From the NCBI GenBank assembly GCA_000818095.1, contig CP009416.1, forward strand, positions 3,394,501 to 3,458,500: DNA of 64,000 nt. The letters are read 5' to 3'. Position 1 is the first letter of the stretch; each line of letters opens with the position of its first letter. The stretch is from Jeotgalibacillus malaysiensis. GTDB lineage: Bacteria > Bacillota > Bacilli > Bacillales > Jeotgalibacillaceae. The position numbers and the translations under genes were made by a program. Shown here piece after piece: positions 6,815 to 47,294 of this stretch. The notes beneath the pieces are model-generated. The model was given only the letters and a program-made list of their open reading frames with translations, ran no database searches and was not told the DNA's origin.

Positions 6815-6940
6815 GATGTTCGTAGAATGATCGGTGATGTTCAGAGAATAACCGGCGGTGTTCTGAGAATAACATCTCATCTTCAAAGAATAATTCAGGT
6901 GGTTCTCAACTAATCAGATGATGTTCATAGAAAAGTGTCA
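6815..6940 (+). repeat. Array A: six 21-bp units with TTCnnAGAA core
   Basis: Six contiguous degenerate units start at 6815, 6836, 6857, 6878, 6899 and 6920, exactly 21 bp apart. Most read (G/C)ATGTTCnnAGAAtaa. Unit 5 is degenerate (TTCTCAACTAA) and the last unit runs into AGAAAAGTGTCATTAGACT. Equivalent arrays lie at 10753-10885 and 19235-19367 in the same orientation. There are no unique spacers, so this is not a CRISPR. It lies between ohrA and nadB and is followed by a hairpin and a GACGGAGT palindrome. Confidence 0.85.
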
Positions 6941-6965
6941 TTAGACTTATGCTGTTAACCTGAAA

Positions 6966-6995
6966 AATCCCCTGACCAGATTACTTGTCAGGGGA
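6966..6995. repeat. Hairpin of composite repeat A (possible ohrA terminator)
   Basis: AATCCCCTGAC and GTCAGGGGATT pair around a short loop. It occupies the same position (between 21-bp array and palindrome) as the hairpins in copies B and C, although its sequence differs. It could terminate minus-strand transcription from ohrA. Confidence 0.6.
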
Positions 6996-6997
6996 TT

Positions 6998-7086
6998 GCG
7001 GGTGGCACACGCGGGACGGAGTTTACCGGTTCATTTTTAGAATGATTCTAAAAATGAATCACTCAACTCCGTCCCCGCTGCGCTGG
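6998..7086. repeat. GACGGAGT palindromic repeat, copy A
   Basis: Outer arms GACGGAGTT (7015-7023) and AACTCCGTC (7064-7072) enclose an inner palindrome TTTTTAGAATGATTCTAAAAA (7034-7054 region). It is one of five copies between 7 and 22 kb and lies just past the ohrA stop. Confidence 0.85.
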
Positions 7087-7099
7087 GTATATTCACCTA

Positions 7100-7516
7100 T
7101 TAAGCAGTACGCACATTAAAGCTAACGTCAATGTTCCCACGCGTTGCATTTGAGTAAGGGCATACCTGGTGGCCTTCTTCAACCAGCTGGCGCGCTGTTT
7201 CTTCGTCTACGCCTTTGATCAGGACGTCCATTTCGACTGATAGTGCGTAGCCTGCATCACCTTTATTCAGTGATACGTCTGCTTTGATTTCAGAACCGTC
7301 ATGTTTAATGCCTTTTTGCATCGCAACAATGTTCATTGCTGAGTCGAAGCATGCTGCATAACCTGCTGCGAACAGTTCTTCAGGGTTACTTTTGCCTGCC
7401 GTGTCTGCGCCTGGCATTGGCATTGCAAGTCCAAGATCGAATGAGCCGCTTTCTGCTGTTACGCGTCCTTCACGTCCGCCTACTGCTGTTGCTGTTGATG
7501 TAAATAGCTTTTTCAT
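7100..7516 (-). CDS. ohrA: Organic hydroperoxide resistance protein (Ohr/OsmC family)
   Basis: Ohr reduces organic hydroperoxides using two cysteines and a dithiol donor in the cytoplasm. This 138-residue protein has both redox cysteines in their conserved settings: Cys56 in AAGYAACFDSA and Cys119 in QVCPYSNATRGN. The N-terminal KKLFTSTATAVGGREGRV is also characteristic. It is transcribed divergently from a MarR-type gene with an OhrR N-terminus, with a paired palindrome between them, so peroxide-induced derepression by OhrR is the expected control. The start ATG has AGGAGG well placed. Confidence 0.96.
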   Translation of the reverse strand: MKKLFTSTATAVGGREGRVTAESGSFDLGLAMPMPGADTAGKSNPEELFAAGYAACFDSAMNIVAMQKGIKHDGSEIKADVSLNKGDAGYALSVEMDVLIKGVDEETARQLVEEGHQVCPYSNATRGNIDVSFNVRTA

Positions 7517-7544
7517 GAATGATTCCTCCTATTAAATGTGGTAT

Positions 7545-7583
7545 ATTTAAGTTGTGCACAATTTAATTTTATACAACTTAAAT
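7545..7583. promoter_or_regulatory. OhrR operator between ohrA and ohrR
   Basis: ATTTAAGTTGT (7545-7555) and ACAACTTAAAT (7573-7583) form an inverted repeat in the divergent intergenic region. AT-rich palindromes with TTGT/ACAA half sites are the known OhrR target type, so this is the likely operator covering both promoters. Confidence 0.7.
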
Positions 7584-7622
7584 AAATTTGCAAATCATAT
7601 GACTCCCGAAAGGAGAATTTTT

Positions 7623-8066
7623 ATGAATCCTTTACAACTATCCAATCAATTATGCTTTCCCTTTTATGCCATCTCTAAAGAAATTATTAAGCGCTACCGC
7701 CCTCTTTTAGCACCGTTGAAACTGACCTACCCGCAATACCTCGTCATGCTGGTTCTGTGGGAAAAAGATGTAGTCACCTTAAAATCAATCGGGGAACGTC
7801 TGCAGTTGGATTCAGGTACGCTCACTCCCCTGGTTAATAAACTGATAGAGACAGGCTATATTGAAAAAACGCGCAATCCTGAAGATGAACGCCAGCTGGT
7901 GATCAGACTGACTGACGCAGGCACAAAACTGGCGCTTCAGGCAGAAAATGTCCCGGGTAAAATTAATGAAGTGTTGGGTTTGAGCCCTGAAGAGTACAAC
8001 ATGTATAAAAAAATGCTTGATGAGCTGGCTTGTAAGCTTGATTTACAAGATGATGAGCGTTGTTAA
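7623..8066 (+). CDS. ohrR: Organic peroxide sensor and repressor OhrR (MarR family)
   Basis: OhrR represses ohrA until a single N-terminal cysteine is oxidised. The 147-residue protein begins MNPLQLSNQLCFPFYAIS, placing the sensing Cys at residue 11, equivalent to Cys15 of B. subtilis OhrR. It continues with the conserved TYPQYLVMLVLWE, a winged helix (LDSGTLTPLVNKL) and the DERQLVIRLT wing. The start is ATG 7623 behind AAAGGAGA, not the longer frame that opens at 7554 inside the operator. A GACGGAGT repeat begins two bases after the stop. Confidence 0.95.
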   Translation: MNPLQLSNQLCFPFYAISKEIIKRYRPLLAPLKLTYPQYLVMLVLWEKDVVTLKSIGERLQLDSGTLTPLVNKLIETGYIEKTRNPEDERQLVIRLTDAGTKLALQAENVPGKINEVLGLSPEEYNMYKKMLDELACKLDLQDDERC

Positions 8067-8067
8067 G

Positions 8068-8151
8068 GCGGTTCACCGGGGACGGAGTTATGTGTTCCAT
8101 TTTTAGAATCATTACAAAAACGAATCACTGAACTCCGTCCCCACTGTGTTG
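8068..8151. repeat. GACGGAGT palindromic repeat, copy D (no 21-bp array)
   Basis: GCGGTTCACCGGGGACGGAG on the left is matched by the inverted arm beginning AACTCCGTCCCC at 8130. The core has TTTTTAGAATC. It directly follows the ohrR stop and lacks both the 21-bp array and the GC-rich hairpin. Confidence 0.8.
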
Positions 8152-8219
8152 CTGATCCTGTGCTATGATAGACACATAGTACTATTTCAACCGATTATAT
8201 TCCTGACAGGGGTGGATAT

Positions 8220-8687
8220 ATGGTAGCGAACGAACGGGGTATGACGTTAGTTGAAGTGCTGGCGTCTGTAGTGATTATCGTGCTTTTGGCGATGGTGTTT
8301 ATGGATTTGTTTTTGACGTCTGCTAGGTCAAATGTGGCGTCTGAGGAAGTGGTGGATCATACTTTTGTTGCACAGCGTCAGATGGAGGATTTATATGAGG
8401 CTGGTCAGCAGTATGCCGCTGAGGATATTGAAACGGTGCTGACGAAATTTTATGGACTTTCACTCGATCAGTCCCTGCCTGAAGAAAAGATCTTTGCAAA
8501 AACTGAGGGTGATGCGCGAGTGGAAGTCACGCTGACACCGTATATGCCTGATGATGAGACATTTTCAGATTTAACGGATGTGCTGACAAAAGCGGTTGTG
8601 GAAGTGAGTTCAACCGCCGATCCGGACGATCCATTTACAAAAATAGAAGGTCTGATTGAATGGAGGAAGGCTGCTGATGCGGAATGA
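8220..8687 (+). CDS. Type II/IV prepilin-like protein
   Basis: This 155-residue protein starts NERG|MTLVEVLASVVIIVLLAMV, a class III (type IV prepilin) signal. Cleavage would occur after Gly7, with Glu at mature position 5 and a hydrophobic assembly helix following. The remainder is acidic and unassigned. The residue after the cleavage site is Met rather than the usual Phe. It is the first of three overlapping or adjacent pilin-like genes (8220-10745), which suggests a pseudopilus or minor pilin set. No prepilin peptidase, ATPase or platform protein is in the window, so assembly must depend on genes elsewhere. Confidence 0.85.
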   Translation: MVANERGMTLVEVLASVVIIVLLAMVFMDLFLTSARSNVASEEVVDHTFVAQRQMEDLYEAGQQYAAEDIETVLTKFYGLSLDQSLPEEKIFAKTEGDARVEVTLTPYMPDDETFSDLTDVLTKAVVEVSSTADPDDPFTKIEGLIEWRKAADAE

Positions 8688-9105
8688 ACGCGGATTTACG
8701 CTGACGGAATTACTTGCGGTGCTGGCGCTGATTTCATTGATTTCTGTTTTTGCAATCGGGATTGTCACGCAGGCTGACAGCAGTGCCGATCAGCAGCAGG
8801 AAGACAGCCTCAGCACACGAAAAGTGACATTTGCTCTTCAATCCATTACGACTGATATAAGAAAGCATCCAAAAGATATTGAAGTGCAGCCCGCGCTGCT
8901 GACCATTCCGACAGAAGACGTGCCCATTATTTATTCCTATGATGAAGATTCACAGGAGTTGCTGAGAAACGGCCGCTCAATTTTAAATAAGGTTGGCGAT
9001 TTCAGCGTGATGCTTGATGAGGATACGCTCAATATTTTAATCACTGACACTTCATCAAAAGTTTGGGAAACACAAATCGTCCTCAGGAAAGGAGCTGACC
9101 TATGA
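8677..9105 (+). CDS. Type II/IV prepilin-like protein
   Basis: This 142-residue protein begins MRNERG|FTLTELLAVLALISLI, a canonical prepilin N-terminus with Phe at mature position 1 and Glu5. Start ATG 8677 is chosen because GGAGGAAGG lies just upstream; the longer frame from 8656 would place extra residues before the leader. It overlaps the end of the previous gene by 11 bp and its own stop overlaps the next start (ATGATGA), so the three genes are translationally coupled. The soluble part is short and acidic and may be a minor pilin or pseudopilin. Confidence 0.85.
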   Translation: MRNERGFTLTELLAVLALISLISVFAIGIVTQADSSADQQQEDSLSTRKVTFALQSITTDIRKHPKDIEVQPALLTIPTEDVPIIYSYDEDSQELLRNGRSILNKVGDFSVMLDEDTLNILITDTSSKVWETQIVLRKGADL

Positions 9106-10745
9106 TGAAACGTTACATAGATAATCAACGCGGTTACTCCTTACTGCTGACGATTTTTGCAGTGATGTTCATTTCAATTGTCGGCGTCAGCATTCTCTCT
9201 TTCACACTGAACACAACCCGGGTCACTGTCAACGAGCAGGTCAATCAGTCTTCCTATTACATCGCTGAGGCCGGTCTGATTGAAAAGCGAGCCGAACTCA
9301 ATGCACTTGCAACCGCTGCATATGAAGACATACTGAATGGTTATAACGACATGCCTGCTGAAGATCAGGCTGAATTTGGTGTAGAAGGCGCCTTTTACAG
9401 CCGCGTCCAAAGCCTGATTGATGAAAAGCTGACCTTTGAAACGACAAGCACCTACGAAGAACAGCAATCCGTCACCCCTTTTTCAACGGCAAAAGTAACC
9501 CAGATCAGCAGCTCGCCGCTTGTCTATGAAATCTCGTCAGCCGGCACCATTCCGGCTGAAAAAACGCCTTCTCTCACAAAAGAACTGAAACAGCGCGTGC
9601 AGATTCAAATGAATGTGGATACAGAGACTGAGGTGGTGACGATTCCGGGAGATGGTGGGACGACGAAGTTTCAGGCTTGTTTTTCGGTTTATGCTGGTGG
9701 GGATTTTGAGCATAATGGCGGGCCTTTAAAGGGACCGATTTATTCCAATGGCAAAACAACATTGAGCGGGGGTAATGCCTCTATTTCGGGTAATATTTAT
9801 TCCAAAGGTGAAGTGCTCCTGCAGGGTGGTAGTGCACGGGTAAACGGCAATGTTTATACCGGTCAAAGCGTCACGGTTAAAGGCGGTGGCGCTTCAGTAA
9901 ATGGAGAAATTTTTGAGAACTTTAATTCAGAAGCCGCTCAAATAGAATGCGTCCAGAAGGCCCCTGAACTCCCACCGGCGGAGACTGCTTTTCCAGCGAC
10001 AAATGTCGCAACAATGCCTAATGAAACCATCCAATTGCATTCTAATAAACATGATGTGATTAAAAATGGAGAATTAAATATCGATAATTACCTGGTGCGT
10101 GATACCAATTATGTCCTTAAGCTGAACCGGGATGTTTATTTCAAAAAGATCAGTATTAAAAGTGACTATCAGTTGACTATAGATTTACAAGGTGAGCACA
10201 GACGAATATTTGTGGATGATTTTGATTTTCAACAGGGTCGGGTTGAATTTATTAATCCCGGAAAGCTAGAAATCATCGTACAGGATGATTTAAAGCTGAC
10301 TGGGGGGAGCTCTATTAACAGAAATAACGATACTGACCAGCTGATTATTCGCCATGCGGGTAACAAAAAACTTACATTTGCAGGCGCCACAGCTCTTAAT
10401 GGTTCCCTTCATGTAAAAGAGGCAGACATTACTTTAGCAGGCAGCAATAACATTGATGGAGATCTATTTGCATATGGCACCTCAGATATCAAAATCACCG
10501 GCGGATCCAATGCGGCTGATAAATTGATTATTGCACCAAATAGCAACCTCTCTATCAGCGGCGGCGGAAGCGCAAATGGAAATATTATTGTAAAAGATTT
10601 TTCCATTACAGGAGGCGGCTCCGTCAACCCGCCCGACAGCGACTACGGCGAATGGGACGGCCCCGGCGGTGAAGAAGACATTGAAGTCATCCGCTATTCT
10701 GAGGACGGAAGCTTTTTGAGGACCGATGTGCTGGTGGAGGAGTAG
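9102..10745 (+). CDS. PilX-like protein with bactofilin-like glycine repeats
   Basis: The 547-residue protein has a PilX-type N-terminus (NQRG|YSLLLTIFAVMFISIVGVSIL, then YYIAEAGL near residue 50). This is followed by an alpha/beta region and, from about residue 200, by short glycine-rich repeats such as GGNASISGNIYSKG, GGSARVNGNVYTGQ and GGGASVNGEI spaced ~18-20 residues apart. A second set (GGSN, GGGSANGNI, GGGSVN) lies near the C-terminus. Such repeats suggest a right-handed beta-helix as in bactofilins or an adhesive tip. PilX-like proteins with this kind of C-terminal region occur in Bacillales pilin clusters, but their function is unknown. Confidence 0.8.
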   Translation: MMKRYIDNQRGYSLLLTIFAVMFISIVGVSILSFTLNTTRVTVNEQVNQSSYYIAEAGLIEKRAELNALATAAYEDILNGYNDMPAEDQAEFGVEGAFYSRVQSLIDEKLTFETTSTYEEQQSVTPFSTAKVTQISSSPLVYEISSAGTIPAEKTPSLTKELKQRVQIQMNVDTETEVVTIPGDGGTTKFQACFSVYAGGDFEHNGGPLKGPIYSNGKTTLSGGNASISGNIYSKGEVLLQGGSARVNGNVYTGQSVTVKGGGASVNGEIFENFNSEAAQIECVQKAPELPPAETAFPATNVATMPNETIQLHSNKHDVIKNGELNIDNYLVRDTNYVLKLNRDVYFKKISIKSDYQLTIDLQGEHRRIFVDDFDFQQGRVEFINPGKLEIIVQDDLKLTGGSSINRNNDTDQLIIRHAGNKKLTFAGATALNGSLHVKEADITLAGSNNIDGDLFAYGTSDIKITGGSNAADKLIIAPNSNLSISGGGSANGNIIVKDFSITGGGSVNPPDSDYGEWDGPGGEEDIEVIRYSEDGSFLRTDVLVEE

Positions 10746-10752
10746 GTCTGCG

Positions 10753-10885
10753 TGTTGGTTCGTGGAATAAAGGGTGATGTTCGAAGAAAAATATGCCTTG
10801 TTCAGAGAATAGACGCGGGTGTTCAAAGAAAAACCCGGGTCATTCGCAACTAAATGCACCACCTTCGTAGAAAAGTGTAATTAGA
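10753..10885 (+). repeat. Array B: six 21-bp units with TTCnnAGAA core
   Basis: TTC cores occur at 10759, 10780, 10801, 10822, 10843 and 10864, all exactly 21 bp apart. Most are followed by GAA(t/a)A. The last unit continues into AGAAAAGTGTAATTAGACCT, shared nearly exactly with array C. It lies just past the pilin operon. Confidence 0.88.
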
Positions 10886-10901
10886 CCTATATCCCAAAGC
10901 A

Positions 10902-10939
10902 CAAATACCCCCGGCTGACCGCTCAGCCGGGGGTATTTG
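10902..10939. terminator. Perfect 17-bp hairpin of composite repeat B
   Basis: CAAATACCCCCGGCTGA and TCAGCCGGGGGTATTTG pair perfectly around CCGC. It lies between the convergent pilin operon and the TrpR-like gene and could terminate both strands. Copy C has the same GC core with different flanks. Confidence 0.8.
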
Positions 10940-10945
10940 TTGATT

Positions 10946-11030
10946 GCGGCTCACCCGGGACGGAGTCAGCTGATCCACTTTTAGAATCATTCTAAAAATG
11001 AATCACTCAACTCCGTCCCCGCTGTGCCGC
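10946..11030. repeat. GACGGAGT palindromic repeat, copy B
   Basis: Left arm GCGGCTCACCCGGGACGGAG (from 10946) and the inverted right arm ending GCTGTGCCGC (11030) enclose CACTTTTAGAATCATTCTAA. The right arm overlaps the 3' end of the convergent TrpR-like gene and supplies its last codons and stop. Confidence 0.88.
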
Positions 11031-11336
11031 CTGCTCTGTTACCGCACCACTACTCATCTCCCTCACCAAAACAGCCCGCAACCCACTGCCTTCCCGATTC
11101 ATACAGCGCTTGATCCGCGACACCATACTCGATCGTGCATTGGTTTCATGCTCAATCGTTTCATAGGTATCTCCATTCATCAGTCTTCTTGCGACCTGGT
11201 AGCGCTGGATGAATGCTTCAAGCTCTTTTCCGGTAGCAATGTCTTCAAAAAAGTCATAGCACTCATCAATCGATTGAAGTGAAATGAGCGCTTCAAAAAA
11301 CTGATCTCGGTTTGCCCTTTCTTTATCTGTTTTCAT
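11007..11336 (-). CDS. YerC/YecD family TrpR-related regulator
   Basis: This 109-residue protein (from ATG 11336, GGGG ribosome binding site) has the compact helical TrpR-like fold signature: FFEALISLQSIDECYDFFEDI, then ELEAFIQRYQVARRL and the helix-turn-helix GDTYETIEHETNARSSMVSRIKR. YerC-like proteins are about 100 residues, and their regulatory role is not established. The last seven residues (AAQRGRS) and the TGA stop are encoded by the right arm of GACGGAGT repeat copy B, so the original C-terminus was probably altered by repeat insertion. Downstream of nhaC in the same direction. Confidence 0.8.
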   Translation of the reverse strand: MKTDKERANRDQFFEALISLQSIDECYDFFEDIATGKELEAFIQRYQVARRLMNGDTYETIEHETNARSSMVSRIKRCMNREGSGLRAVLVREMSSGAVTEQAAQRGRS

Positions 11337-11363
11337 GTTGTCTATCCCCATTCAGTGTGTTGA

Positions 11364-12794
11364 TCAGAGTACCATTTTCTTCTCTTCCATTTCTTCTTCC
11401 GCATACACTTCTCCTGCTCCTTCAGGCGGTAATACAGCCAGAAAGCGCGTGTAGCCCAGGATGATGGCAATGATCGGTGTGATGATACAGAAGAAGCTGA
11501 ATAAGACGTAACCCATTCCTACACTTAATGTCGACATAATGAATGCGCCGGACACGCCCCACGGAACGAGTGGATGAACGACTGTGCCTGCATCCTCAAG
11601 CGTTCTTGAAAGGTTTTTCGGATGCAGTCCTGCTTTTTGATAAGAGTTCTCAAGCATCTGCCCTGGTAAAATGATCGATAGATACGCTTCCCCGATCACA
11701 ACATTTACCCCAATACATGATAGAACCGTTGTTAGAATGACGTTTCCTTTTCGATTTAAAAAGCCGGCAATGCCTTCAATAATGACCTGGTGAAATCCGA
11801 TCAGCTGAATCAGTCCGCCGAATGCCAGCGCGACTAAGATGATGGATACACCAAACATCATACTTGCGAGTCCGCCAAGCGATAACAGACTATCAACTGC
11901 CTCCACACCGGTTTCAGCTGTGTAGCCAAAGTGTGCAGCGGCCATGATGTCACCAATCGAAGCACCAGGCGCTGTATAAAATGCAGTCAGTACCGCGATA
12001 AATAATCCGCAGATTAATGTTGGAATCGGTGGAACCTTCCTAAGCGCTAACGCAATAATGGCGAGCGGTGACAGCAATGTGACTGCACTTAATGGAAACT
12101 GTTGCTGTAAAATCGTGATCATTTCTTCGATTTGAGTCAGATTTGGATTCACAAATCTTGAGTCAAGACCGATTACTGTAAAAATGCCCATCGTGATCAG
12201 TAGTGCCGGTATCGTTGTCCATAACATGTAGCGGATATGTTCGAAAATATCCACTTTACCGATCGCTGAAGCAAGGTTTGTTGTATCAGATAGCGGCGAC
12301 ATTTTATCACCAAAGATCGCACCACTGACGATCGCACCCGCTGTCATCACAGGTGAAATATCCATACCGTAAGCAACGCCCATCAGCGCCACACCCATTG
12401 TACTGATTGCACTCCAGGAGCTTCCTGTCATGACTGAGACGATCACACACAGCACAACCGCTGATAAAAGGAAGAACTGTGGTGATAGAATCAGCAGTCC
12501 GTAATAAGACATTGTTGGGACTGTGCCGTTAAGCGCCCATACTCCAATGACAACACCAATCAGACAGAGGATCAGGATGGATGAAAGCCCTGCTGATATG
12601 CCTTTCACCATTGCGCCTTCGATCTCTTTCCATTTAAAACCGATGAAATAGCCATAAATTGCAACAGCTGAGGCGACAATCAGGATCGGAATCTGCGGCG
12701 CGACCTGATAATGCAGAATGCTGACGCCTAATACAAACGTGAGAAAGACAATTAACAGAACAGACATTAGGAATGACGGTTTACGTGTTTTCAT
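11364..12794 (-). CDS. nhaC: Na+/H+ antiporter NhaC family
   Basis: This is a 476-residue integral membrane protein with about 12 hydrophobic segments. It carries the NhaC-type signatures TGSSWSAISTMGVALMG and GAIFGDKMSPLSDTTNLA, and a second inverted-repeat half with EAGTV-like DAGTVVHPLVPWG. Members exchange Na+ (or dicarboxylates in related proteins) for H+ across the cytoplasmic membrane. The start is ATG 12794 behind GGGGG, not the upstream frame. It lies 108 bp after hmgA on the same strand, so it may be read through from the tyrosine operon; a link between the two is inference. Confidence 0.88.
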   Translation of the reverse strand: MKTRKPSFLMSVLLIVFLTFVLGVSILHYQVAPQIPILIVASAVAIYGYFIGFKWKEIEGAMVKGISAGLSSILILCLIGVVIGVWALNGTVPTMSYYGLLILSPQFFLLSAVVLCVIVSVMTGSSWSAISTMGVALMGVAYGMDISPVMTAGAIVSGAIFGDKMSPLSDTTNLASAIGKVDIFEHIRYMLWTTIPALLITMGIFTVIGLDSRFVNPNLTQIEEMITILQQQFPLSAVTLLSPLAIIALALRKVPPIPTLICGLFIAVLTAFYTAPGASIGDIMAAAHFGYTAETGVEAVDSLLSLGGLASMMFGVSIILVALAFGGLIQLIGFHQVIIEGIAGFLNRKGNVILTTVLSCIGVNVVIGEAYLSIILPGQMLENSYQKAGLHPKNLSRTLEDAGTVVHPLVPWGVSGAFIMSTLSVGMGYVLFSFFCIITPIIAIILGYTRFLAVLPPEGAGEVYAEEEMEEKKMVL

Positions 12795-12902
12795 TCTGTT
12801 TCCCCCTGAGTTCATTATGTACAACATGTAAAAACAATCATTTTTTTACAGCGAAGCGCAATAGAATACCGGGAGAAAGTGGTCACCTTCCCCCTGTTAT
12901 CT

Positions 12903-14054
12903 CTATTTCCAGCTATATTTGTAATCCTTATCCTCAAACTGATGTGCCTGTTTCACCACTTTTAACGGTCGGAACGTATCGATCATGACAGCAAGCTCTG
13001 TCGTCTCCTTTTTGCCAATACTCGCTTCGATTTTACCCGGGTGTGGGCCGTGCGGGATGCCTGAAGGATGAAGTGTGAATGAGCCTTCTTTAACCCCTTT
13101 TCTGCTCATGAAATTCCCTTTTACATAGTAAAGCACTTCATCACTGTCGACGTTGCTGTGATAATACGGCGCCGGGATCGCCTCCGGATGGTAATCATAC
13201 ATCCGCGGCACAAATGAACAGATCACAAAATTATTCGCTTCAAACGTCTGGTGAATCGGCGGCGGCATATGTACGCGTCCTGTAATCGGTTCAAAGTCGC
13301 TGACGTTAAATGTGTATGGGAATAGATAGCCGTCCCAGCCGATAACATCAAGCGGGTGATGGGCAAATGTGTGCAGGTGCATGAACCCTCTGGACTTTGT
13401 TTTCACATGATATTCATTTCTGTCATCATGGGTTTCAAGCTTCTCAGGTCCGTGAAAATCCCTTTCACAAAAAGGACTGTGTTCTAGCAGCTGACCGTGA
13501 ACGTTACGGTAACGCTTTGGCGTTGTAATCCAGCTGTTAGTCTCAATGACGAGAAACTTTGTATCCCCTTCATCAGGTACGACGCGGTAAATCGTGCCAA
13601 TCGGAAGCACGATATAATCACCCGGTTTATAAGGCAGCGTGCCAAACGTTGTCTCAACTTTGCCTGAGCCGTAATGGACAAATAACACTTCATCCCCGTC
13701 ACCGTTGCGGTAAAAGTAGTCCATTGCTTTCGTCGGTCGTGCAATGCCGATTAATACGTCATCATTGCCGAGAACGTAATGTCTGCCTGATACAGCATCC
13801 GTGTCTGCCTTCTGATCAGGCGAATCAATCAGGCGCGGTGCAAGCCCCTTCTGCTCCTCATATTCAACCGCGCAGCTCCCAAGCAGCTCAGATTCCACCA
13901 TACTTGTTGGCGGATAATGGTGATAAAGAATGGACTGGATCCCTGAAAATCCCTTTGTGCCCATGACCTGCTCGCGAAACAGCGATCCGTCTTCCTTTTT
14001 AAACATCGTGTGTCTCTTTTTTGGTATTTGTCCCATCTGCTTATAAAATGGCAT
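12903..14054 (-). CDS. hmgA: Homogentisate 1,2-dioxygenase
   Basis: This enzyme opens the ring of homogentisate to maleylacetoacetate with a non-haem Fe(II). The 383-residue protein carries the C-terminal cupin with the likely iron ligands in YYHSNVDSDEVLYY (His and Glu) and HPSGIPHGPHPG (His). It also has upstream landmarks such as the FMHLHTFAHHPLDVIGWDG patch. Start ATG 14054 follows GGAGGTCAAGAGGAG 14 bases after fahA. The sequence is of the bacterial short form. It is the last catabolic gene of hpd - unknown - fahA - hmgA. Confidence 0.93.
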   Translation of the reverse strand: MPFYKQMGQIPKKRHTMFKKEDGSLFREQVMGTKGFSGIQSILYHHYPPTSMVESELLGSCAVEYEEQKGLAPRLIDSPDQKADTDAVSGRHYVLGNDDVLIGIARPTKAMDYFYRNGDGDEVLFVHYGSGKVETTFGTLPYKPGDYIVLPIGTIYRVVPDEGDTKFLVIETNSWITTPKRYRNVHGQLLEHSPFCERDFHGPEKLETHDDRNEYHVKTKSRGFMHLHTFAHHPLDVIGWDGYLFPYTFNVSDFEPITGRVHMPPPIHQTFEANNFVICSFVPRMYDYHPEAIPAPYYHSNVDSDEVLYYVKGNFMSRKGVKEGSFTLHPSGIPHGPHPGKIEASIGKKETTELAVMIDTFRPLKVVKQAHQFEDKDYKYSWK

Positions 14055-14068
14055 CTCCTCTTGACCTC

Positions 14069-15343
14069 CTACTTCATCGTATCCGCAGCTACTAAAGCTG
14101 GTAAAATCCGTCCCGTTACTTCTCCAAAGCCGATTCTGTAACCGGCTCCCTGGCACCAGCCCGTGATGGTGATTTCATCTTCATCCTCCACCCAGATCCG
14201 CTCTTCACCATTTGCAAGACGAATCGGATCGGTTCCGCGCCAGGTCAGCTCTAAAAAGCTGCCCCGCTGCTCCCTTTCAGGTCCGCTGATTGTACCTGAC
14301 GCAAGCAGATCACCCGGCCTCAGATTACAGCCTGATACTGTATGGTGGCTGATCTGCTGCGCCATGCTCCAGTAGAGATGACGAAAGTTTGTCGAGATAA
14401 TCCGCTGTGGCTGTTCCATTTTGCTGCCCTTAAGATAAACCTCAAGATGAATATCAAATGACCCTGCACCAGACTGTTTCAAGTAATCAAGCGGCTCAGG
14501 ATCCTGCTCAGGTCCGCTTACTCTAAATGGCTCAAGTGCTTCTAACGGAATCACCCACGGCGAAACCGATGTCGCAAAGCTTTTCGCTAAAAAGGGACCA
14601 AGCGGCTGATACTCCCACGCCTGAATATCCCTGGCACTCCAGTCGTTGACAAGCACAAGTCCAAAGATCTGATCCTCAGCGTCAGCCATCGCAACCGGCT
14701 TCCCCTGTTCATTGCCGGGCCCGATAAACCAGCCCATCTCAAGTTCAATATCAAGCTGCTGACTTGGTCCGTAGACCGGAAATTCCTGATCAGGCTTTTT
14801 CATCTGACCGTTTGGACGGCGTACATCCGTCCCGCTCACCACAACTGAACTCGCACGCCCGTGGTAACCAACCGGCAGATGCGTCCAGTTCGGCATTAGG
14901 GCATTTTCTTTACCTCTGAACATCGTCCCAACATTCGTTGCATGCTCCTTTGACGCATAAAAGTCCGTATAATCACCAATCTGAGCAGGCAGTAAAAGCC
15001 TCACTTCCTTGATCGGCACAAGCGCTTTTTCACGCAGGGCTGCATTGTCACGCAGTTCAGGCTCATTCTCATCTAAAAGTCGCTGAACTTCTTCTCTCAC
15101 AAGCTTCCACGTTGATTTCCCAAGCTTCATAAATGCGTTCAGTGAAAACTGATTGAAGATAGATTCCTCATTTAGCCCGGCACGCTTGAAAAAGCCTTCC
15201 TGCTCAATGACTGATAAATCCAACACATATTCCCCAATCGCAACCCCAATCCTCGGCTCACCATCTGAAGGCTTGAACACCCCATACGGCAGATTCTGAA
15301 TTGGAAAATGCGACAGTGAATCTGTTTCAATAAACGACCTCAT
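14069..15343 (-). CDS. fahA: Fumarylacetoacetase
   Basis: This enzyme hydrolyses fumarylacetoacetate to fumarate and acetoacetate, the last step of tyrosine catabolism. The 424-residue protein is the full-length eukaryote-like type. It has an N-terminal SH3-like section and then DYTDFYASKEHATNVGTMFRG (metal Asp and catalytic His), PVGYHGRASS, LDIELEMGWFIG (metal-binding E-x-E) and VLVNDWSARDIQAWEYQPLG (metal Asp). The AAAGGATGG ribosome binding site suits ATG 15343 rather than the GTG one codon upstream. The gene sits 25 bp after the unknown third gene and 14 bp before hmgA. Confidence 0.94.
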   Translation of the reverse strand: MRSFIETDSLSHFPIQNLPYGVFKPSDGEPRIGVAIGEYVLDLSVIEQEGFFKRAGLNEESIFNQFSLNAFMKLGKSTWKLVREEVQRLLDENEPELRDNAALREKALVPIKEVRLLLPAQIGDYTDFYASKEHATNVGTMFRGKENALMPNWTHLPVGYHGRASSVVVSGTDVRRPNGQMKKPDQEFPVYGPSQQLDIELEMGWFIGPGNEQGKPVAMADAEDQIFGLVLVNDWSARDIQAWEYQPLGPFLAKSFATSVSPWVIPLEALEPFRVSGPEQDPEPLDYLKQSGAGSFDIHLEVYLKGSKMEQPQRIISTNFRHLYWSMAQQISHHTVSGCNLRPGDLLASGTISGPEREQRGSFLELTWRGTDPIRLANGEERIWVEDEDEITITGWCQGAGYRIGFGEVTGRILPALVAADTMK

Positions 15344-15367
15344 CACTTCTGACCATCCTTTCCTGTT

Positions 15368-16315
15368 TTACAATAAACGAAGCGCCTGCAAATCCTCCCG
15401 CGGCTCTTCAAAGCTGCAGCTGCCAAACGAATAAAGCGCAGCACGCAGCTGTCTGATCTCTTCTGTATGAACCTTCAGCTCCTTCCACATAAACCCATCC
15501 TTTTGAAATGAGAAGTGGTCTGCATGTTGATCAGTTAGTATGTAAGCGATTTCATTTTGTTCTAAATGACATACCCGCCCAAGCATTGCAGCGGTAAATA
15601 CATTTAAAAAGCCATGCATGTCAGTCTGAACTTCCTCTCGATACATGCGTACCGGATGATGAAGCCCTGCTGTAAATTTCTGCGGAATGTTCCTGTCACT
15701 ACAGGCTTTCAATACAAATGCAGCCTGCTCCGCGGTTGGAAAAGCATCCGCTGTGACGCCGCCCATCCGCAGCTTGAAGCCGATCTTTTGTTTAGCAGAA
15801 TCGTTGTAGTAGTTGATCTGATCTAACGTTCCAATAATGTGCTGTTCCCATTCCCTGCTGTGCAGCGGCGTTGTGACTTCAAAAAAAACTTGAGCGTCAC
15901 CAGTTTCAGCGGCTGCTTTTTTAAAAAGGCTCTGATCCAGAACGCCTGATGGCAGCGGGAGTTCAAGCATCGATACGGTCACAAGATTGCTATGCTCAGC
16001 CTTGAAGTCAGCCAGCGTTTTCATATCTGAACGAAACTGCTTCAACCAAGTTTCAGTATCAGCAGGCCTTCCTGTCACAGATAGATCCAGCTTCCTGTCT
16101 GCTGAAAACAAATGAAGATAAGCCTCGAGCTCAGTGATTCTTCCCACCGGCATCACAAACCTACCGAGCATCCAGGCATCCGCATGCTGCTGATATTCAG
16201 CGTAGTTTCGGATCGCTTCATCCAAAGAAAGCAGCGCCGGCGGAAATAAACCGGCGTAGTCAATGATGTGTGATAAATACGTCTGCGTACTGGACTGCAA
16301 TTTTTTCACAGACAT
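15368..16315 (-). CDS. Uncharacterised protein of the tyrosine degradation operon
   Basis: The 315-residue protein is not one I can assign to a characterised family. It is cytosolic in appearance, with no signal or membrane segment. Alternating beta strands and helices (DLSVTG, VTVSMLELP, VFFEVT, IGFKLRMGG, KFTAGLHHPVRMY) suggest a TIM-barrel-like fold. The GFKLRMGGVTADAFPT and KFTAGLHHPVR patches look like active-site loops. The gene lies six bases after hpd and before fahA. The operon contains no GST-like maleylacetoacetate isomerase, and since this is the only unassigned gene in it, an isomerase role is a testable possibility. That role is inference. Confidence 0.75.
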   Translation of the reverse strand: MSVKKLQSSTQTYLSHIIDYAGLFPPALLSLDEAIRNYAEYQQHADAWMLGRFVMPVGRITELEAYLHLFSADRKLDLSVTGRPADTETWLKQFRSDMKTLADFKAEHSNLVTVSMLELPLPSGVLDQSLFKKAAAETGDAQVFFEVTTPLHSREWEQHIIGTLDQINYYNDSAKQKIGFKLRMGGVTADAFPTAEQAAFVLKACSDRNIPQKFTAGLHHPVRMYREEVQTDMHGFLNVFTAAMLGRVCHLEQNEIAYILTDQHADHFSFQKDGFMWKELKVHTEEIRQLRAALYSFGSCSFEEPREDLQALRLL

Positions 16316-16321
16316 ACGCGC

Positions 16322-17443
16322 TTAAATGTTTCCTCTGCGTTCCTGTTCGCGCTCAATTGACTCGAATAATGCTTTAAAGTTTCCTTCTCCAAAGCCTCTT
16401 GCACCTTTACGCTGAATGATTTCAATGAACAGCGTCGGACGGTCTACAACAGGCTTTGTGAAAATCTGTAGCAGGTACCCCTCATCATCGCGGTCTACTA
16501 GAATATTGAGCTCCTGGAGTCTTTGCACGTCCTCATCAATATCCCCTACACGCGCAGCAAGATCTTCATAATAAGTAGCCGGTGTCTGCAGAAATTCAAC
16601 GCCGTTTTCATGCAGTGCATGGACCGTTGAAATAATATCATTTGTCAGTACAGCTAAATGCTGAACGCCGGGGCCGTTATGGAAGTCGAGATATTCCTGA
16701 ATCTGCGACTTACGCTTCCCTTCAGCCGGCTCGTTAATTGGAAACTTGATGCGACCCGACCCGTTTGTCATAACCTTAGACATTAAAGCAGAGTAGTCTG
16801 TTGAAATATTTTCATCGTCAAAATGCTTTAACACATTAAATCCGAATACTTTTTCATAATAAGACGTCCATTCGTCCATTCTTTCAACGTTTCCGACAAC
16901 GTGATCAATACCGACAAGGCCGATGGATTTTGATTTGCTTGGTCCATCGTACGGCTCATAGCCAGGAAGGAAAGCCCCTTCGTAATCAACATTCTCAACG
17001 AGTGTATGAATCACATCTCCATATGTACCGATGATTGCTTTTTTCACCGTACCGTTTTCATCCTTTTCAGTCCAGGGCTCACGAATACCCGTTCCACCGC
17101 GCTCCACTGCACCGTAATAGGCTTTATCAATATCAGACACCTCAAGGCCGATATCCTTCGTCCCTTCACCGTGGAGTTTCACAAACTCAGCAATATCCGT
17201 CTCGTTTGTAAGAGAACCGGTAATCACCAGTCTGATCACGCCCTGCTCGAGCACATAAGACACTCTCTCGCGGCTACCAGTCTCAAGTCCGCGGTAAGCT
17301 TTGATTTCAAAGCCAAACGCATGACAGAAATAGTACGCCGATTGCTTCGCATTCCCCACATATAACTCCAAATGGTGAAAGCTTTCTACCGGGAAAATAT
17401 CCTCTACCATTTCCTGCGTCACTTCAGTTACATCCTTTGCCAT
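16322..17443 (-). CDS. hpd: 4-Hydroxyphenylpyruvate dioxygenase
   Basis: This enzyme converts 4-hydroxyphenylpyruvate to homogentisate. The 373-residue protein has two vicinal-oxygen-chelate domains and the Fe(II) triad: His181 (GLVGIDHVVGNV), His262 (NGPGVQHLAVLT) and Glu341 (LFIEIIQRKG). The C-terminal RKGARGFGEGNFKALFESIE helix that gates the active site is intact. It is the first gene of the tyrosine operon, with ribosome binding site GGGGGA and a promoter-like sequence overlapping a cre-like site at 17482-17519, so carbon catabolite control is likely. Confidence 0.97.
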   Translation of the reverse strand: MAKDVTEVTQEMVEDIFPVESFHHLELYVGNAKQSAYYFCHAFGFEIKAYRGLETGSRERVSYVLEQGVIRLVITGSLTNETDIAEFVKLHGEGTKDIGLEVSDIDKAYYGAVERGGTGIREPWTEKDENGTVKKAIIGTYGDVIHTLVENVDYEGAFLPGYEPYDGPSKSKSIGLVGIDHVVGNVERMDEWTSYYEKVFGFNVLKHFDDENISTDYSALMSKVMTNGSGRIKFPINEPAEGKRKSQIQEYLDFHNGPGVQHLAVLTNDIISTVHALHENGVEFLQTPATYYEDLAARVGDIDEDVQRLQELNILVDRDDEGYLLQIFTKPVVDRPTLFIEIIQRKGARGFGEGNFKALFESIEREQERRGNI

Positions 17444-17481
17444 TTTTAGGTCCCCCTTGAAAAAATTTAGAATCTTTCAAA

Positions 17482-17510
17482 ATCTTAATCTTTAAATTTA
17501 TACTTTGCAA
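17482..17510 (-). promoter_or_regulatory. Candidate promoter of the hpd operon
   Basis: On the minus strand TTGCAA (-35, 17505-17510) and TAAGAT (-10, 17482-17487) are separated by 17 bp, upstream of the hpd start at 17443. The -35 overlaps the cre-like site. Confidence 0.5.
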
Positions 17511-17519
17511 ACGCTTACT
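17506..17519 (-). promoter_or_regulatory. cre-like CcpA site upstream of hpd
   Basis: The minus strand reads AGTAAGCGTTTGCA, matching 12 of 14 positions of the cre consensus TGWAANCGNTNWCA. Its overlap with the -35 element suggests repression by CcpA when preferred sugars are present. Confidence 0.5.
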
Positions 17520-17769
17520 TTAACGCATGAAATTGGTAGAAGAGTAAAGGTAGAAGGGCATGGTTGCTGGATGTTCAAGAGTTCAACCGGCAGTTCTGTT
17601 TATGGAAGTCAACAACGTGACTTCTGCAGCATAAAATTTTGTTATAAAGCAACAAATGTCTTTATCACGATCATGCGGTAATGCTTTCACACCGATCCTT
17701 GCGCCGGAGAAAATCTCATTCCTATAATCACCTCATGAAGCTTAATTCTATCTGGGGAGGTTTGATCTC
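17520..17769. other. Divergent intergenic region hpd / DUF1450 gene
   Basis: Apart from the hpd promoter and cre-like site, the remaining ~250 bp contains no ORF or strong hairpin. A promoter for the DUF1450 gene is expected here but not assigned. Confidence 0.4.
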
Positions 17770-18012
17770 ATGGTACACCTTATAAAGTTTTGCCCAAATA
17801 ACTTTAAAAAGAAGCTCAATGAAACAAAAGCAGCCGTTAAGCAATTGCCTGATGTGCAGGTAATAGAAAACAAATGCCTCAATTATTGCGGACAGTGCAT
17901 TGTAGAACCTTTTGCTATCGTGGATGGGAAGGCTGTTTTTTGTAACCGACCGGAAGAATTGTATCCGGCGATCAGAGAGAAACTTTCCAGCTCACCAGCC
18001 CTAACTAAATAG
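17770..18012 (+). CDS. DUF1450 family small cysteine-rich protein
   Basis: This 80-residue protein has the pattern IKFCPNN near the N-terminus, then KCLNYCGQC and a final VFCNRPEEL. This matches the YuzB/DUF1450 layout with a thioredoxin-like ferredoxin fold. The C-x3-C-x2-C cluster could bind metal or act in redox chemistry, but the family has no established function. Start ATG 17770 has GGGGAGG upstream. It lies 63 bp before phenylalanine dehydrogenase on the same strand. A cre-like site separates the two, so they may be separately transcribed. Confidence 0.85.
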   Translation: MVHLIKFCPNNFKKKLNETKAAVKQLPDVQVIENKCLNYCGQCIVEPFAIVDGKAVFCNRPEELYPAIREKLSSSPALTK

Positions 18013-18017
18013 AAAAA

Positions 18018-18031
18018 TGTAAGCGCTTTAA
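18018..18031 (+). promoter_or_regulatory. cre-like CcpA site upstream of pdh
   Basis: TGTAAGCGCTTTAA matches 13 of 14 positions of TGWAANCGNTNWCA. It lies 45 bp before the pdh start, just after the DUF1450 stop. Confidence 0.6.
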
Positions 18032-18075
18032 TTTAATGTTATTTCACAAAAACACAAATTCAGGAGGCTATTCTA

Positions 18076-19218
18076 TTGAAAACCATGACACAAACAACAC
18101 CTGCACTATCTGCAGATTTATTTGAAAAAATGCAGGAGCATGAACAAATTGTTTTTTGCAATGACCCTGCAACAGGACTGAAAGCCATCATTGCAATACA
18201 TAACACAACGCTTGGTCCTGCAATCGGTGGTACAAGAATGAGGAATTATGATTCGACTGAAGAAGCGCTCGAAGACGTCCTGCGCCTGTCAAAAGGGATG
18301 ACATACAAATGCGCGGCAGCTGACCTGGACTTTGGCGGGGGAAAAGGTGTGATTATTGGTGACCCTGCAACGGATAAATCGCCTGAATTGTTCCGTGCAT
18401 ACGGCCAGTTTGTGGAATCATTGAACGGCCGCTTTTATACCGGAACGGATATGGGCACGGTGCTTGAAGACTTTGTTCACTCACACCGTGAAACAAATTG
18501 TATTGCCGGACTTCCTGAAGAATACGGCGGCGGAGGGGAAACGTCCATTCCGACTGCACTTGGCGTTCTTTACAGCATTAAAGCAGTAGCTAAAACGCTC
18601 TACGGTACTGAAAACCTGCTTGAAAAAACGTTTTCGATTCAGGGACTCGGCAAAGTCGGCTTTAAGCTGGCAGAGCATCTGCTTGAAGAAGGCGCGAACC
18701 TTTATGTAACAGATATCAACCCTGACACCATCGATGCACTTGTTCAAAAAGGTTCATTTATGGGAAGAAGCGTCATTCCTGTTGATGGAGATGCGATCTA
18801 TCAGGCTCCTGCAGATATGTTTGTACCATGTGCGATTGGCGGCATTATTAATGAACAGACTATTCAGCAACTGACAGTAAAAGCAATTGTAGGCGCTGCT
18901 AATAATCAGCTTTTAACCGAAGATCTGGCACTTGTGTTAAAAGAAAAAGGGATTCTGTATGCTCCGGATTATATCGTAAACAGCGGCGGGATTATCCAGG
19001 TAACAGATGAGTTGTATTCACCTAACAAGGAACGCGTGCTGAAGAAGACAAAAGCGATTTATCACTCATTATTAGAAGTGTTTGAGCAGGCGGCTCAGCA
19101 GAATATTACAACGGTTGAAGCGGCTAATGAGATCTGTGAGCGCAGAATTGAAGGGAGAAAGAACCGGAATAGCTTTTTCTCACCGAGGAAGCGCGCGAAG
19201 TGGGATGTGAGGCACTGA
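18076..19218 (+). CDS. pdh: Phenylalanine dehydrogenase (Glu/Leu/Phe/Val dehydrogenase family)
   Basis: This NAD-dependent enzyme oxidatively deaminates phenylalanine (and often tyrosine) to the 2-oxo acid. The 380-residue sequence has the catalytic lysines at 78 and 90 ([19 protein letters not shown]), the nucleotide motif QGLGKVG at 189-195 and NNQL in the active site. ETN (residue 141 region) with YGGGGETS, and the C-terminal [14 protein letters not shown], closely resemble phenylalanine dehydrogenases of Sporosarcina/Lysinibacillus rather than leucine dehydrogenase. The start is TTG 18076, eight bases behind AGGAGG. Its divergent position from hpd makes a joint role in aromatic amino acid catabolism likely. 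Confidence 0.9.
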
Positions 19219-19234
19219 GGTGTTGGTTGATTCA

Positions 19235-19367
19235 TTAGGATTCGTGGAATCATGGGTGATGTTCGGAGAAAAACATGCCTGGTTCGAAGAATAGACGCGT
19301 ATGTTCAAAGAAAAACCCGGGTGGTTCGCAACTAAGTGCAACACCTTCGTAGAAAAGTGTAAATAGA
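19235..19367 (+). repeat. Array C: six 21-bp units with TTCnnAGAA core
   Basis: TTC cores lie at 19241, 19262, 19283, 19304, 19325 and 19346, exactly 21 bp apart. The sequence is closely related to array B. It ends with the conserved AGAAAAGTGTAAATAGACCT tail and lies just past the pdh stop. Confidence 0.88.
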
Positions 19368-19387
19368 CCTAGACCCAAAACCACACA

Positions 19388-19419
19388 AATCCCCCGGCTG
19401 ACCGCTCAGCCGGGGGATT
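19388..19419. terminator. Perfect 14-bp hairpin of composite repeat C
   Basis: AATCCCCCGGCTGA and TCAGCCGGGGGATT pair around CCGC. It is located between the convergent pdh and ykkD genes and probably ends both. Confidence 0.8.
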
Positions 19420-19426
19420 ATTGATT

Positions 19427-19511
19427 GCGGCTCACCCGGGGACGGAGTTAGCTGATCCACTTTTAGAATCATTCTAAAAATGAACCACTCAACTCCGTCT
19501 CCGCTGCGCCG
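19427..19511. repeat. GACGGAGT palindromic repeat, copy C
   Basis: Left arm GCGGCTCACCCGGGGACGGA and the inverted right arm AACTCCGTCTCCGCTGCGCC enclose CACTTTTAGAATCATTCTAA. It ends six bases before the ykkD stop. Confidence 0.88.
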
Positions 19512-19517
19512 TTTCAA

Positions 19518-19835
19518 TTAACTCGTCACAACCCGCAGCCCGACAACCGCCACTACAATCAGTATCAAAAAGAAAATCCGTTTCTTGTCTGCAGGATCTC
19601 CGTAAAAGATCATTCCTACAACAACTCCGCCAATCGTACCCATACCCGTCCAGACGGCGTAAGCCACACCAAGTGGAATGGTTGTCATAGCGAATGAAAG
19701 AAGGTTCAGGCTCGCTACAAAGCCGCCGATCAGAAAGATAAACCCACTGATCTTTTTACCTGTTGCGATCCGCTGCATGCCGTTCACACCTAGCACCTCG
19801 CAGAATCCTGCAATAATTAATGCAATCCAGCTCAT
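19518..19835 (-). CDS. ykkD: Guanidinium exporter subunit, SMR family (YkkD-like)
   Basis: This 105-residue small multidrug resistance protein has four membrane helices. The conserved Glu lies in helix 1 (AGFCEVLGVNGMQ), and the SMR patch GVAYAVWTGMGTIGG is in helix 3. Its start overlaps the partner gene stop by 4 bp and has AAGGAGG upstream. SMR pairs of this type work as heterodimers. The guanidine-I riboswitch in front of the operon indicates export of guanidinium rather than drugs. Nearest characterised match by layout is B. subtilis YkkD (renamed GdnD). Confidence 0.9.
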   Translation of the reverse strand: MSWIALIIAGFCEVLGVNGMQRIATGKKISGFIFLIGGFVASLNLLSFAMTTIPLGVAYAVWTGMGTIGGVVVGMIFYGDPADKKRIFFLILIVVAVVGLRVVTS

Positions 19836-20167
19836 GATTCCTGTGCCTCCTTTTCATTTTCATCTGTGACAAACTTCAGACCGATCACGCCGACAAGCAG
19901 CATGATGACAAATAAAACGACGCCAGCATTCATGCCCGCTTCAAAGAAAATCATATCTACGATGACTGTACCCAGCGTGCCAAGTCCTACAAAGACGGCA
20001 TAGACCGTTGCTGTCGGAAGACGCGTTGAAGCCATCAGCAGTCCGGTAAAGCTGACAACGATCGCTGCAATTGTCAGTGTCCATGTGAGCCCATCATTTG
20101 CATATTTCAGGCCAGTTGCCCAGCCGATTTCAAACAGTGCCGCAACTGCTACAACAAACCACCACAT
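19832..20167 (-). CDS. ykkC: Guanidinium exporter subunit, SMR family (YkkC-like)
   Basis: This 111-residue SMR protein has four transmembrane helices, Glu13 in FEIGWATGLK, the GTVYAVF-like TATVYAVFVGLGTLGTV stretch and a charged C-terminal tail (DENEKEAQES) as in B. subtilis YkkC (GdnC). It is the first gene of the pair and lies 20 bp after the riboswitch terminator. Ribosome binding site AAGGAG is well placed. The heterodimer with the next gene product should exchange guanidinium for protons. Confidence 0.92.
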   Translation of the reverse strand: MWWFVVAVAALFEIGWATGLKYANDGLTWTLTIAAIVVSFTGLLMASTRLPTATVYAVFVGLGTLGTVIVDMIFFEAGMNAGVVLFVIMLLVGVIGLKFVTDENEKEAQES

Positions 20168-20189: not shown

Positions 20190-20239
20190 AAAAATAAAAA
20201 ACCCGGGACATATCACTGTAAAAGTGGTATCTCCCGGGC
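20190..20239 (-). terminator. Riboswitch expression-platform terminator
   Basis: On the minus strand GCCCGGGAGATACCACTTTT pairs with the sequence ending ATATGTCCCGGG and is followed by a long T-rich tract (TTTTTTATTTTTTTT). It should be disrupted when guanidine is bound. Confidence 0.88.
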
Positions 20240-20243
20240 TTTT

Positions 20244-20335
20244 CTCCCTCCGTGTACAAAAATTGCTCTTTGCGCTTTCTCTCGGACCAGACCCGTGATG
20301 GCGGAACCCTAGAAAGACTTTAAATGTCTATGGAG
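20244..20335 (-). ncRNA. Guanidine-I (ykkC) riboswitch
   Basis: The minus strand contains the three conserved blocks of the ykkC class in order: TCTAGGGTTCCG (20302-20313), CTGGTCCGAGAGAAAG (20275-20290) and ACACGGAGGGA (near 20245-20255). A terminator and an SMR exporter pair follow directly, the standard arrangement. Guanidine binding is expected to turn the exporter operon on. Boundaries of the aptamer are approximate. Confidence 0.95.
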
Positions 20336-36568: not shown

Positions 36569-36585
36569 ACAATCAATTAAATAAG

Positions 36586-36687
36586 GTTATCAAGAGTGAA
36601 CGAGAGTACTGGCTCAGCGACTTCACAGCAACCTGCCTAAAAAGGTAAGGTGCTCCAACCAGCAAAGCACAGGCTTTGGATGATAAC
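36586..36687 (+). ncRNA. S-box (SAM-I) riboswitch
   Basis: GTTATCA (36586-36592) pairs with TGATAAC (36681-36687) as P1. Inside are the class signatures in order: AAGAG, ACTGGCTC, GCAACC, AGGTGCTCCAACCAGCAAAG and GGATGATAA. A terminator follows at 36701-36732. SAM binding should stop transcription of the unknown gene at 36778. Assignment is by motif order and pairing; some P2/P3 bases differ from the commonest consensus. Confidence 0.85.
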
Positions 36688-36700
36688 GAACGGACCGCGG

Positions 36701-46839: not shown

Positions 46840-47172
46840 ATAGACAGCTCCTTTATGTAAATGAATATTAAACCTTATTATACCATTTTATTAATATGCA
46901 AGATATGAATTACAGAGATCCCGGCTCACACTGCTGATAGCAATTATAATTTTAAGTGTATGACCCTACTTTTATTTAGACATATTATCTTATTTTTAAA
47001 AACTGGATCCAGGAAGAATAACCCCGCGTTATCATTGCAACCTTCAACTATCTTTGTCATACAAAAGTCTTGTTCCGGGAGTTTACTTTAGATAGCTGCC
47101 AATCAAATGAACTGGATAAATCCTACAGAAGATGTTACACTTTCTCTAGTGATTTAGAAAAAACTGAATATA
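46840..47172. other. AT-rich intergenic region upstream of the thiamine operon
   Basis: I see no ORF, repeat or hairpin of note. The thiamine operon promoter must lie in its last ~50 bp, before the THI-box. Confidence 0.5.
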
Positions 47173-47265
47173 AAAACACTAGGGGAGTCTTTCGGGACTG
47201 AGACGGAGAAATCCGGACCCTTCGAACCTGATCTAGTTGAAACTAGCGTAGGGAAGTGGTTGATG
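47173..47265 (+). ncRNA. TPP (THI-box) riboswitch
   Basis: The conserved THI elements are in order: CACTAGGGGAGTC, GGGACTGAGACGG, GGACCCTTCGAACCTGATCT, then AACTAGCGTAGGGAAGTGG. A terminator at 47295-47325 and the thiazole synthesis operon follow. Thiamine pyrophosphate should turn the operon off. Confidence 0.97.
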
Positions 47266-47294
47266 TATGTTATATACGTTCGAAAATATAACCA

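Follow-up and report, generated by a model that had tools for sequence, protein, structure and literature searches.

The stretch of DNA analysed here (the window) comprises 64,000 nucleotides of Jeotgalibacillus malaysiensis, assembly GCA_000818095.1 (contig CP009416.1, here C1 or contig 1, positions 3,394,501-3,458,500; the genome, G000 below, measures 4.12 Mb in two contigs), and carries three dispersed arrays of direct repeats, each built from six 21-bp units. Array 1 occupies 6816-6941, array 2 10756-10881 and array 3 19238-19363, all on the forward strand. Six TTC trinucleotides run through each, from 6819, 10759 and 19241 respectively, with every step exactly 21 bp; an initial annotation had described this regularity correctly, placing the starts (6815, 10753 and 19235) 4-6 bp early. 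A lag scan of the whole window (lags 8-60) agrees, since lag 21 peaks at the array loci only (6751 and 6813, 10752, 19236), lag 42 peaks at two of the three, and elsewhere there are only single peaks, at lags 12, 33 and 57. TTC is present in all six units of each array, but the full TTCnnAGAA core that had been proposed (class A below) is found in only five, four and four units of arrays 1, 2 and 3, because unit 5 has diverged in all three (TTCTCAACT or TTCGCAACT) and unit 1 in arrays 2 and 3 (TTCGTGGAA in both). Each array closes with a tail, whose end is TAGACTTA in array 1 (6942-6949) and TAGACCTA in arrays 2 and 3 (10882-10889 and 19364-19371; forward strand throughout). The tail was said to be kept, and its pattern does have three matches in the window against 0.01 expected, with one mismatch each in arrays 1 and 3.

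Beyond each tail stands a terminator-like hairpin: at 6966-6997, adjoining the 3' end of an OsmC-like gene (7100-7516, reverse strand); at 10902-10939, a strong one, adjoining the 3' end of a TrpR-like gene (11007-11351, reverse strand); and at 19388-19419, a near copy of the second, beside a small multidrug-resistance gene (19518-19835, reverse strand). These neighbours (an OsmC-like protein, a TrpR-like repressor and a small multidrug-resistance protein, from Pfam matches of the nine surrounding genes) are unlike one another, so no shared regulon is evident.

The three arrays belong to a much larger family. About 58 occur in G000, all on contig 1, in three core classes: 35 of class A, 19 of class B (TTCGRCGTWWA) and 4 of class C (TTCAGGAGATTA), in a list compiled by hand from several pattern listings with classes assigned by eye. 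The tail, about GTGTAATTTGACCTA, is common to the classes. A two-unit pattern with at most one mismatch gives 122 and 131 matches on the two strands of G000, against 4 and 3 for a reversed control, and six TTC at 21-bp steps give 38 forward and 36 reverse matches, against none on either strand for the reversed pattern. The common orientation noted in the initial annotation holds for the window; genome-wide, however, arrays are listed on both strands, and no convincing bias by replication strand is seen (36 of 58 arrays, p = 0.09). At one locus (L054, contig 1, 33773-34058) an array of class A lies head to tail with one of class B, close to what by eye looks like a small cytoplasmic RNA gene (scRNA, the signal recognition particle RNA).

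Because the arrays were mostly found with ungapped patterns, their gap-free alignment is partly built in. When steps of 15-27 bp were allowed, 21 bp nevertheless remained the length of 154 of the 158 steps found in 32 class A chains, drawn from the window and 30 own-genome stretches (at least one chain, that of L310, being read on the strand opposite to its array). The other four steps are two of 20 bp, one of 26 and one of 27, the last two representing extra cores at chain ends. The initial annotation had suggested selection on spacing and had named random spacing of other genomic copies as the outcome that would speak against it; the copies are not random, and the case for selection can be extended to the core. 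In six orthologous class A pairs supported by both flanks or synteny, 12 of 252 core positions differ against 116 of 360 spacer positions (p = 2e-18), though the choice of pairs that are class A in both species builds in part of this excess and to that extent counts against our interpretation. (The core is counted as the TTC and AGAA positions. A seventh pair, window 10758 with L293, matched on one flank, brings the counts to 12 of 294 and 132 of 420; four positions per unit, of which 54 of 168 differ in the seven pairs, are excluded from both. L069/L298 was compared in the better of its two registers, and L308/L288, whose register is uncertain, was left out.) Neutral decay of a tandem repeat, which the near homogeneity of some arrays in other genera might bring to mind, is contradicted by a core far better kept than the spacer and by 21-bp steps that persist where other spacings were allowed; we give it almost no credence.

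All three window arrays are followed by a hairpin and then by a palindrome, GACGGAGT, which had been joined to them as a composite element of about 270 bp. That arrangement holds in the window, but none of the 36 other own-genome stretches assigned to the array family contains GACGGAGT, so the composite is local and the palindrome a separate element. Its pattern (GACGGAGT...ACTCCGTC) has 31 matches in G000. A 59-bp near-perfect palindrome, GACGGAGTT...AACTCCGTC, with the same 31 pattern matches in G000, lies at window 7015-7073, 8081-8139, 10959-11017 and 19441-19499, and may be a miniature inverted-repeat transposable element (MITE) whose inverted ends are longer; genome G008 has a comparable palindrome, GGGGACGGAGG, near a class C array (L281). 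Window arrays 2 and 3, 8.5 kb apart, are 89% identical over 266 bp including hairpin and palindrome (10756-11035 against 19238-19515), which suggests gene conversion or duplication between repeats.

Array places are common to several species even where the core differs. A flank comparison of four species, covering the retrieved loci, gives 32 rows (about 25 distinct locus pairs) in which both flanks match in the same orientation, with arrays of equal or different class. One locus with three sites, read by eye, has classes A, A, A in G000, C, C, C in G007, B, B, B in G011 and B, B, A in G006, with the order and orientation of sites the same in all four; G009 and G004 have at the first of these sites a six-unit array built on a fourth core, with GACCTATG as its tail. 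One site in six species thus keeps its place and a related tail, with a core of type A, B, C or the fourth. (Stretches beside the corresponding gene in G001, G003 and G010 have no array in the printed sequence.) In the orthologous mixed A/B arrays L067 and L254 the change runs unit by unit.

These comparisons bear on whether the arrays are small non-autonomous mobile elements, their repeats serving as recombinase or transposase sites and new copies inserting near terminators or into older arrays. Such insertion would fit G008, which has two classes in tandem where G000 has one (L285, L288), and the likeness of window arrays 2 and 3, whose edges lie near the repeat edges; it would also fit genome G009, where 0 of 20 loci match another species' array on both flanks. 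Yet both flanks do match at 13 of 23 loci in G011 and 10 of 22 in G008. Spacer identity is 0.58-0.83 in orthologous class A pairs against a mean of 0.45 (highest 0.85) in 171 unrelated own-genome pairs, and the orthologous class A arrays therefore descend in place. Arrays of different class at orthologous places have spacers near background (0.38 against 0.37 for non-orthologous arrays, standard deviation 0.09; 17 pairs, one of which, L060/L247, matches on one flank only), as replacement would give, so most class switches are either old or replacements. Inspection by eye, with no systematic search made, turned up neither terminal inverted repeats nor a target duplication. On balance we regard a mobile element as improbable.

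Elsewhere in the genus the picture is uneven. A strict three-unit class A pattern is found in 6 of 12 genus genomes and, with one match, in one other genome among 397 of the order. The matches listed in a scan of named genomes include Jeotgalibacillus alimentarius, salarius, terrae and strain R-1-5s-1, together with many unrelated genomes (Allobacillus and Texcoconibacillus with six-unit repeats among them), and the three-unit pattern alone is therefore no proof. Six TTC at 21-bp steps match in 11 of the 12 genus genomes; the reversed control also matches in G001, G003, G004, G005, G006, G007, G009 and G010, and on one strand reaches about the level of the true pattern or slightly below it in G001, G003 and G010, less so in G005. 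Among 33 printed runs (a listing of runs of at least six units) we recognise classes A, B and C and a class D (TTCGCARGATTTTG), with six units each and a related tail. Forms without the TTC rule also occur: an ATCGAAG core in about eight units with a register break in G002, six units alternating ATCGAAG and ATCCGCG in G005, and six units with a TTnnACAAC core in G004. Two arrays near contig ends of G009 (L277, L278) are C/T-rich with the same 21-bp period (ATTCTACACACTTTGCTCTTC); a link with a high-copy repeat is possible.

The usual count of six units genome-wide, the further core classes and the places kept while the core changes all go beyond the initial annotation, as do arrays of 21-bp period in other genera. 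Twenty loci in 11 such genomes, hand-picked for their array-like look and so not a random sample, hold tandem arrays of TTC at 21-bp steps, with 7-31 units and cores of their own. They look intergenic, yet open frames of at least 90 codons overlap several, because 21 bp is seven codons. In L345-L362 (genomes G261, G047, G144 and G086) two units alternate to give a 42-bp super-period, with several cores per genome. (An order-wide count, in which 197 of 397 genomes match the pattern, is not usable as prevalence, since many matches resemble coiled-coil coding repeats and the control matches too.)

The arrays adjoin gene 3' ends. A convergent 3' neighbour is found for 29 of 35 arrays in G000, 15 of 18 in G011, 19 of 21 in G008 and 8 of 16 in G009, and of the 88 arrays for which both neighbours could be called, just one has divergent genes on its two sides. 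(Counts use simple open reading frame calls and exclude near-overlapping matches, arrays whose tail keeps fewer than 4 of 6 bases, and the duplicate of a G008 array listed twice as L046 and L051. Where several species have arrays at one place, these are not independent of one another.) Several arrays are flanked by two terminator-like hairpins, one on each side, as judged by eye.

On a larger scale the arrays might label the origin-proximal region for a protein of chromosome segregation, condensation or nucleoid occlusion. When the chromosome of G000 is divided into thirds, running from the presumed origin to the terminus, the 58 arrays are distributed 41/16/1 (chi-square p = 7e-10), or 24/13/1 when neighbours within 12 kb are merged (p = 3e-5), and the second contig has no array at up to two mismatches. 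The origin, however, is our assumption, set at the start of contig 1 solely from the scRNA-like gene near 33 kb (by eye), and the bias may follow conserved gene order. Nor do the arrays listed in two genomes of another genus crowd near the contig start (where the origin is assumed and the control matches are many), and three genus genomes seem to lack arrays. A chromosome-scale signal is accordingly, in our judgement, quite unlikely.

Several other functions were considered and set aside. An RNA element is disfavoured by a consensus fold of 24 aligned class A arrays that has no base pair, and the only window matches to Rfam at gathering score are three riboswitches elsewhere: Guanidine-I (20229-20323, reverse strand), SAM (36584-36689, forward) and TPP (47171-47271, forward). 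The guanidine-I riboswitch is adjoined by two small multidrug-resistance genes (19518-20167). Rho loading, suggested by a flank C-rich and G-poor in the convergent-gene sense, is not borne out by several other-genera arrays, and a likeness of the last unit to Xer/dif sites does not extend to classes B to D, both judged by eye.

With a period of seven codons, the arrays could encode microproteins of heptad repeats. Across units 1-5 the best frame, +2, has no stop in 18 of 24 class A arrays; in G011 it stays open in 12 of 19 where 7.6 would be expected (P = 0.02), a weak excess. Column composition alone, however, predicts 15.3 open class A arrays (P = 0.14), stops interrupt 6 of the 24, frame +2 has no significant excess in G008 or G009, and no consistent start is seen by eye. 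Coding heptads thus seem highly unlikely.

Intrinsic curvature is too modest to be the whole function. The predicted end-to-end ratio averages 0.90-0.92 in four genomes against 0.95-0.96 in shuffles. The difference is in the direction that would be expected if the arrays were supercoiling sinks, wrapping sites for a topoisomerase or a histone-like protein in the manner of Escherichia coli BIME-2 (a bacterial interspersed mosaic element) with DNA gyrase. The E. coli gyrase motif spans about 130 bp, with flanks of 10.75-bp periodic GC content (PMC6379681); the 126-bp array comes near that length, and its position beside gene 3' ends would also suit a sink. Set against this, 19-31% of shuffles, on average, are as curved as the arrays, repetition alone would raise the score, and invariant base-specific cores that change between species would be unexpected for a conserved, weakly specific enzyme. 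We therefore think a supercoiling sink unlikely, while giving it some weight.

With no pair in the class A RNA, no clear coding signal and only modest curvature, DNA recognised by a protein is the simplest reading. About 35 own-genome arrays have one core in common, which indicates a factor acting in trans, and one core at dozens of loci with another core in the next species points to a factor whose specificity moves. The phased protein-binding array of the initial annotation is the best reading, its protein being putative. Such an array under selection, leaving the boundary role proposed below aside, we hold to be probable.

In our proposal an array serves as a binding platform some 126 bp long and closed by the common tail. 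Its sites, usually six, recur every second helical turn, which would line up six protein units, or three dimers, along a single face of the DNA. A sequence-specific protein would bind the sites together and wrap or stiffen the DNA. Lying just past gene 3' ends, often by terminators, the complex would most likely act as a boundary, stopping read-through transcription and separating the supercoiled domains of neighbouring transcription units. The specificity of the protein would change fast, and the arrays would follow by site changes in place, perhaps with gene conversion or replacement, to yield classes A, B, C and others; places and orientation kept while the core changes, including the mixed A/B site, are to be expected if the sites follow a changing protein. 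The architecture, the conserved core, the common places and the lack of a conserved RNA fold are direct observations on which this proposal builds. As a whole (a phased array, bound by a fast-evolving protein, acting as a boundary at gene ends) it is tentative, with a chance that we put somewhat short of even.

Fast core change would also fit genetic conflict. The arrays could be decoys, iteron-like sites that titrate the initiator or repressor of a plasmid or phage and so confer immunity, with an arms race explaining the turnover of cores; plasmid iterons are likewise helically phased direct repeats. However, none of 18 phage stretches matching the class A pattern has a six-unit array with the Jeotgalibacillus tail (one contig has homogeneous six-unit repeats, of another kind), and decoys would leave both the gene-end placement and the common places without explanation. 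We rate decoy arrays very improbable.

A number of observations weigh against the boundary proposal. Neither the spacing nor the unit count is absolute: a single 20-bp step occurs in each of two own-genome arrays, at the three-site locus the final step measures 20 bp in G011 and G006 (site 2) and in G009 and G004 (site 1), and there are arrays of 7 and 10 units in G009 and of 7 in G008 (overlapping matches). The class D arrays of G009 do not show the 3'-neighbour rule (8 of 16); at 14 of the 16 it is on the 5' side that a + gene ends. Nominally low P values for coding come from three of 24 frame tests (G011 frame +2, already given, G011 frame -2 at P = 0.04 and G008 frame -2 at P < 0.01, the G008 set holding array L046/L051 twice). 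No lag-21 array was found in 80 kb each of G001, G003 and G010; in G002 the test locus holds a single array-like stretch and another 80 kb holds none, and the two lag-21 peaks in 40 kb of G005 both look coding. The array system therefore looks dispensable in the genus. Finally, the binding protein, its cooperativity and the boundary role are all deduced from DNA sequence.

The DNA between bacterial terminators is often treated as empty, and here it holds dozens of precise arrays. They may reveal a new layer of bacterial chromosome organisation, and a recognition sequence that differs by species at common places offers a test of how a protein and dozens of its sites change together. One could imagine an order-wide family of boundary elements whose bound protein switches specificity between species while places and architecture stay; this we consider possible, though less likely than not, and such a family would be a bacterial counterpart of fast-evolving satellite or PRDM9-type recognition. 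A search of the open-access full-text literature, subscription papers lying outside it, found no description of such arrays.

Among known systems, CRISPR (clustered regularly interspaced short palindromic repeat) arrays have identical repeats of 24-40 bp, whereas these have a 9-bp core with variable bases and a period of 21 bp, and a coding heptad repeat would keep a frame open through the array, which is interrupted in 6 of 24 class A cases. Plasmid iterons share direct repeats in helical phase (here 154 of 158 steps); they differ in that no replication or initiator gene is found by Pfam among the nine genes around the window arrays, that dozens of copies are dispersed over the chromosome, and that the core changes at fixed places. 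The TAACTGA repeats of Beggiatoaceae (PMC4679880) are likewise abundant and dispersed, with two to six direct repeats per set, but they are 7 bp long and mostly precede start codons, and ours are 21-bp units beside gene ends. MITEs are also short, dispersed and non-coding; by contrast, part of the array places are common to several species, and no inverted ends or target duplication were noticed by eye in the aligned loci, where no systematic search was made. The repetitive extragenic palindromic (REP) sequences and BIMEs of enterobacteria are, like the arrays, dispersed in many copies, intergenic, species-specific in sequence and near gene 3' ends (again, 1 of 88 arrays lies between divergent genes). 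Their palindromic hairpin unit has no counterpart in the class A arrays, with 0 consensus pairs in 24, and what distinguishes the arrays from REP and BIME elements is the usual count of six units, the 21-bp phasing, and the places that are kept while the core changes.

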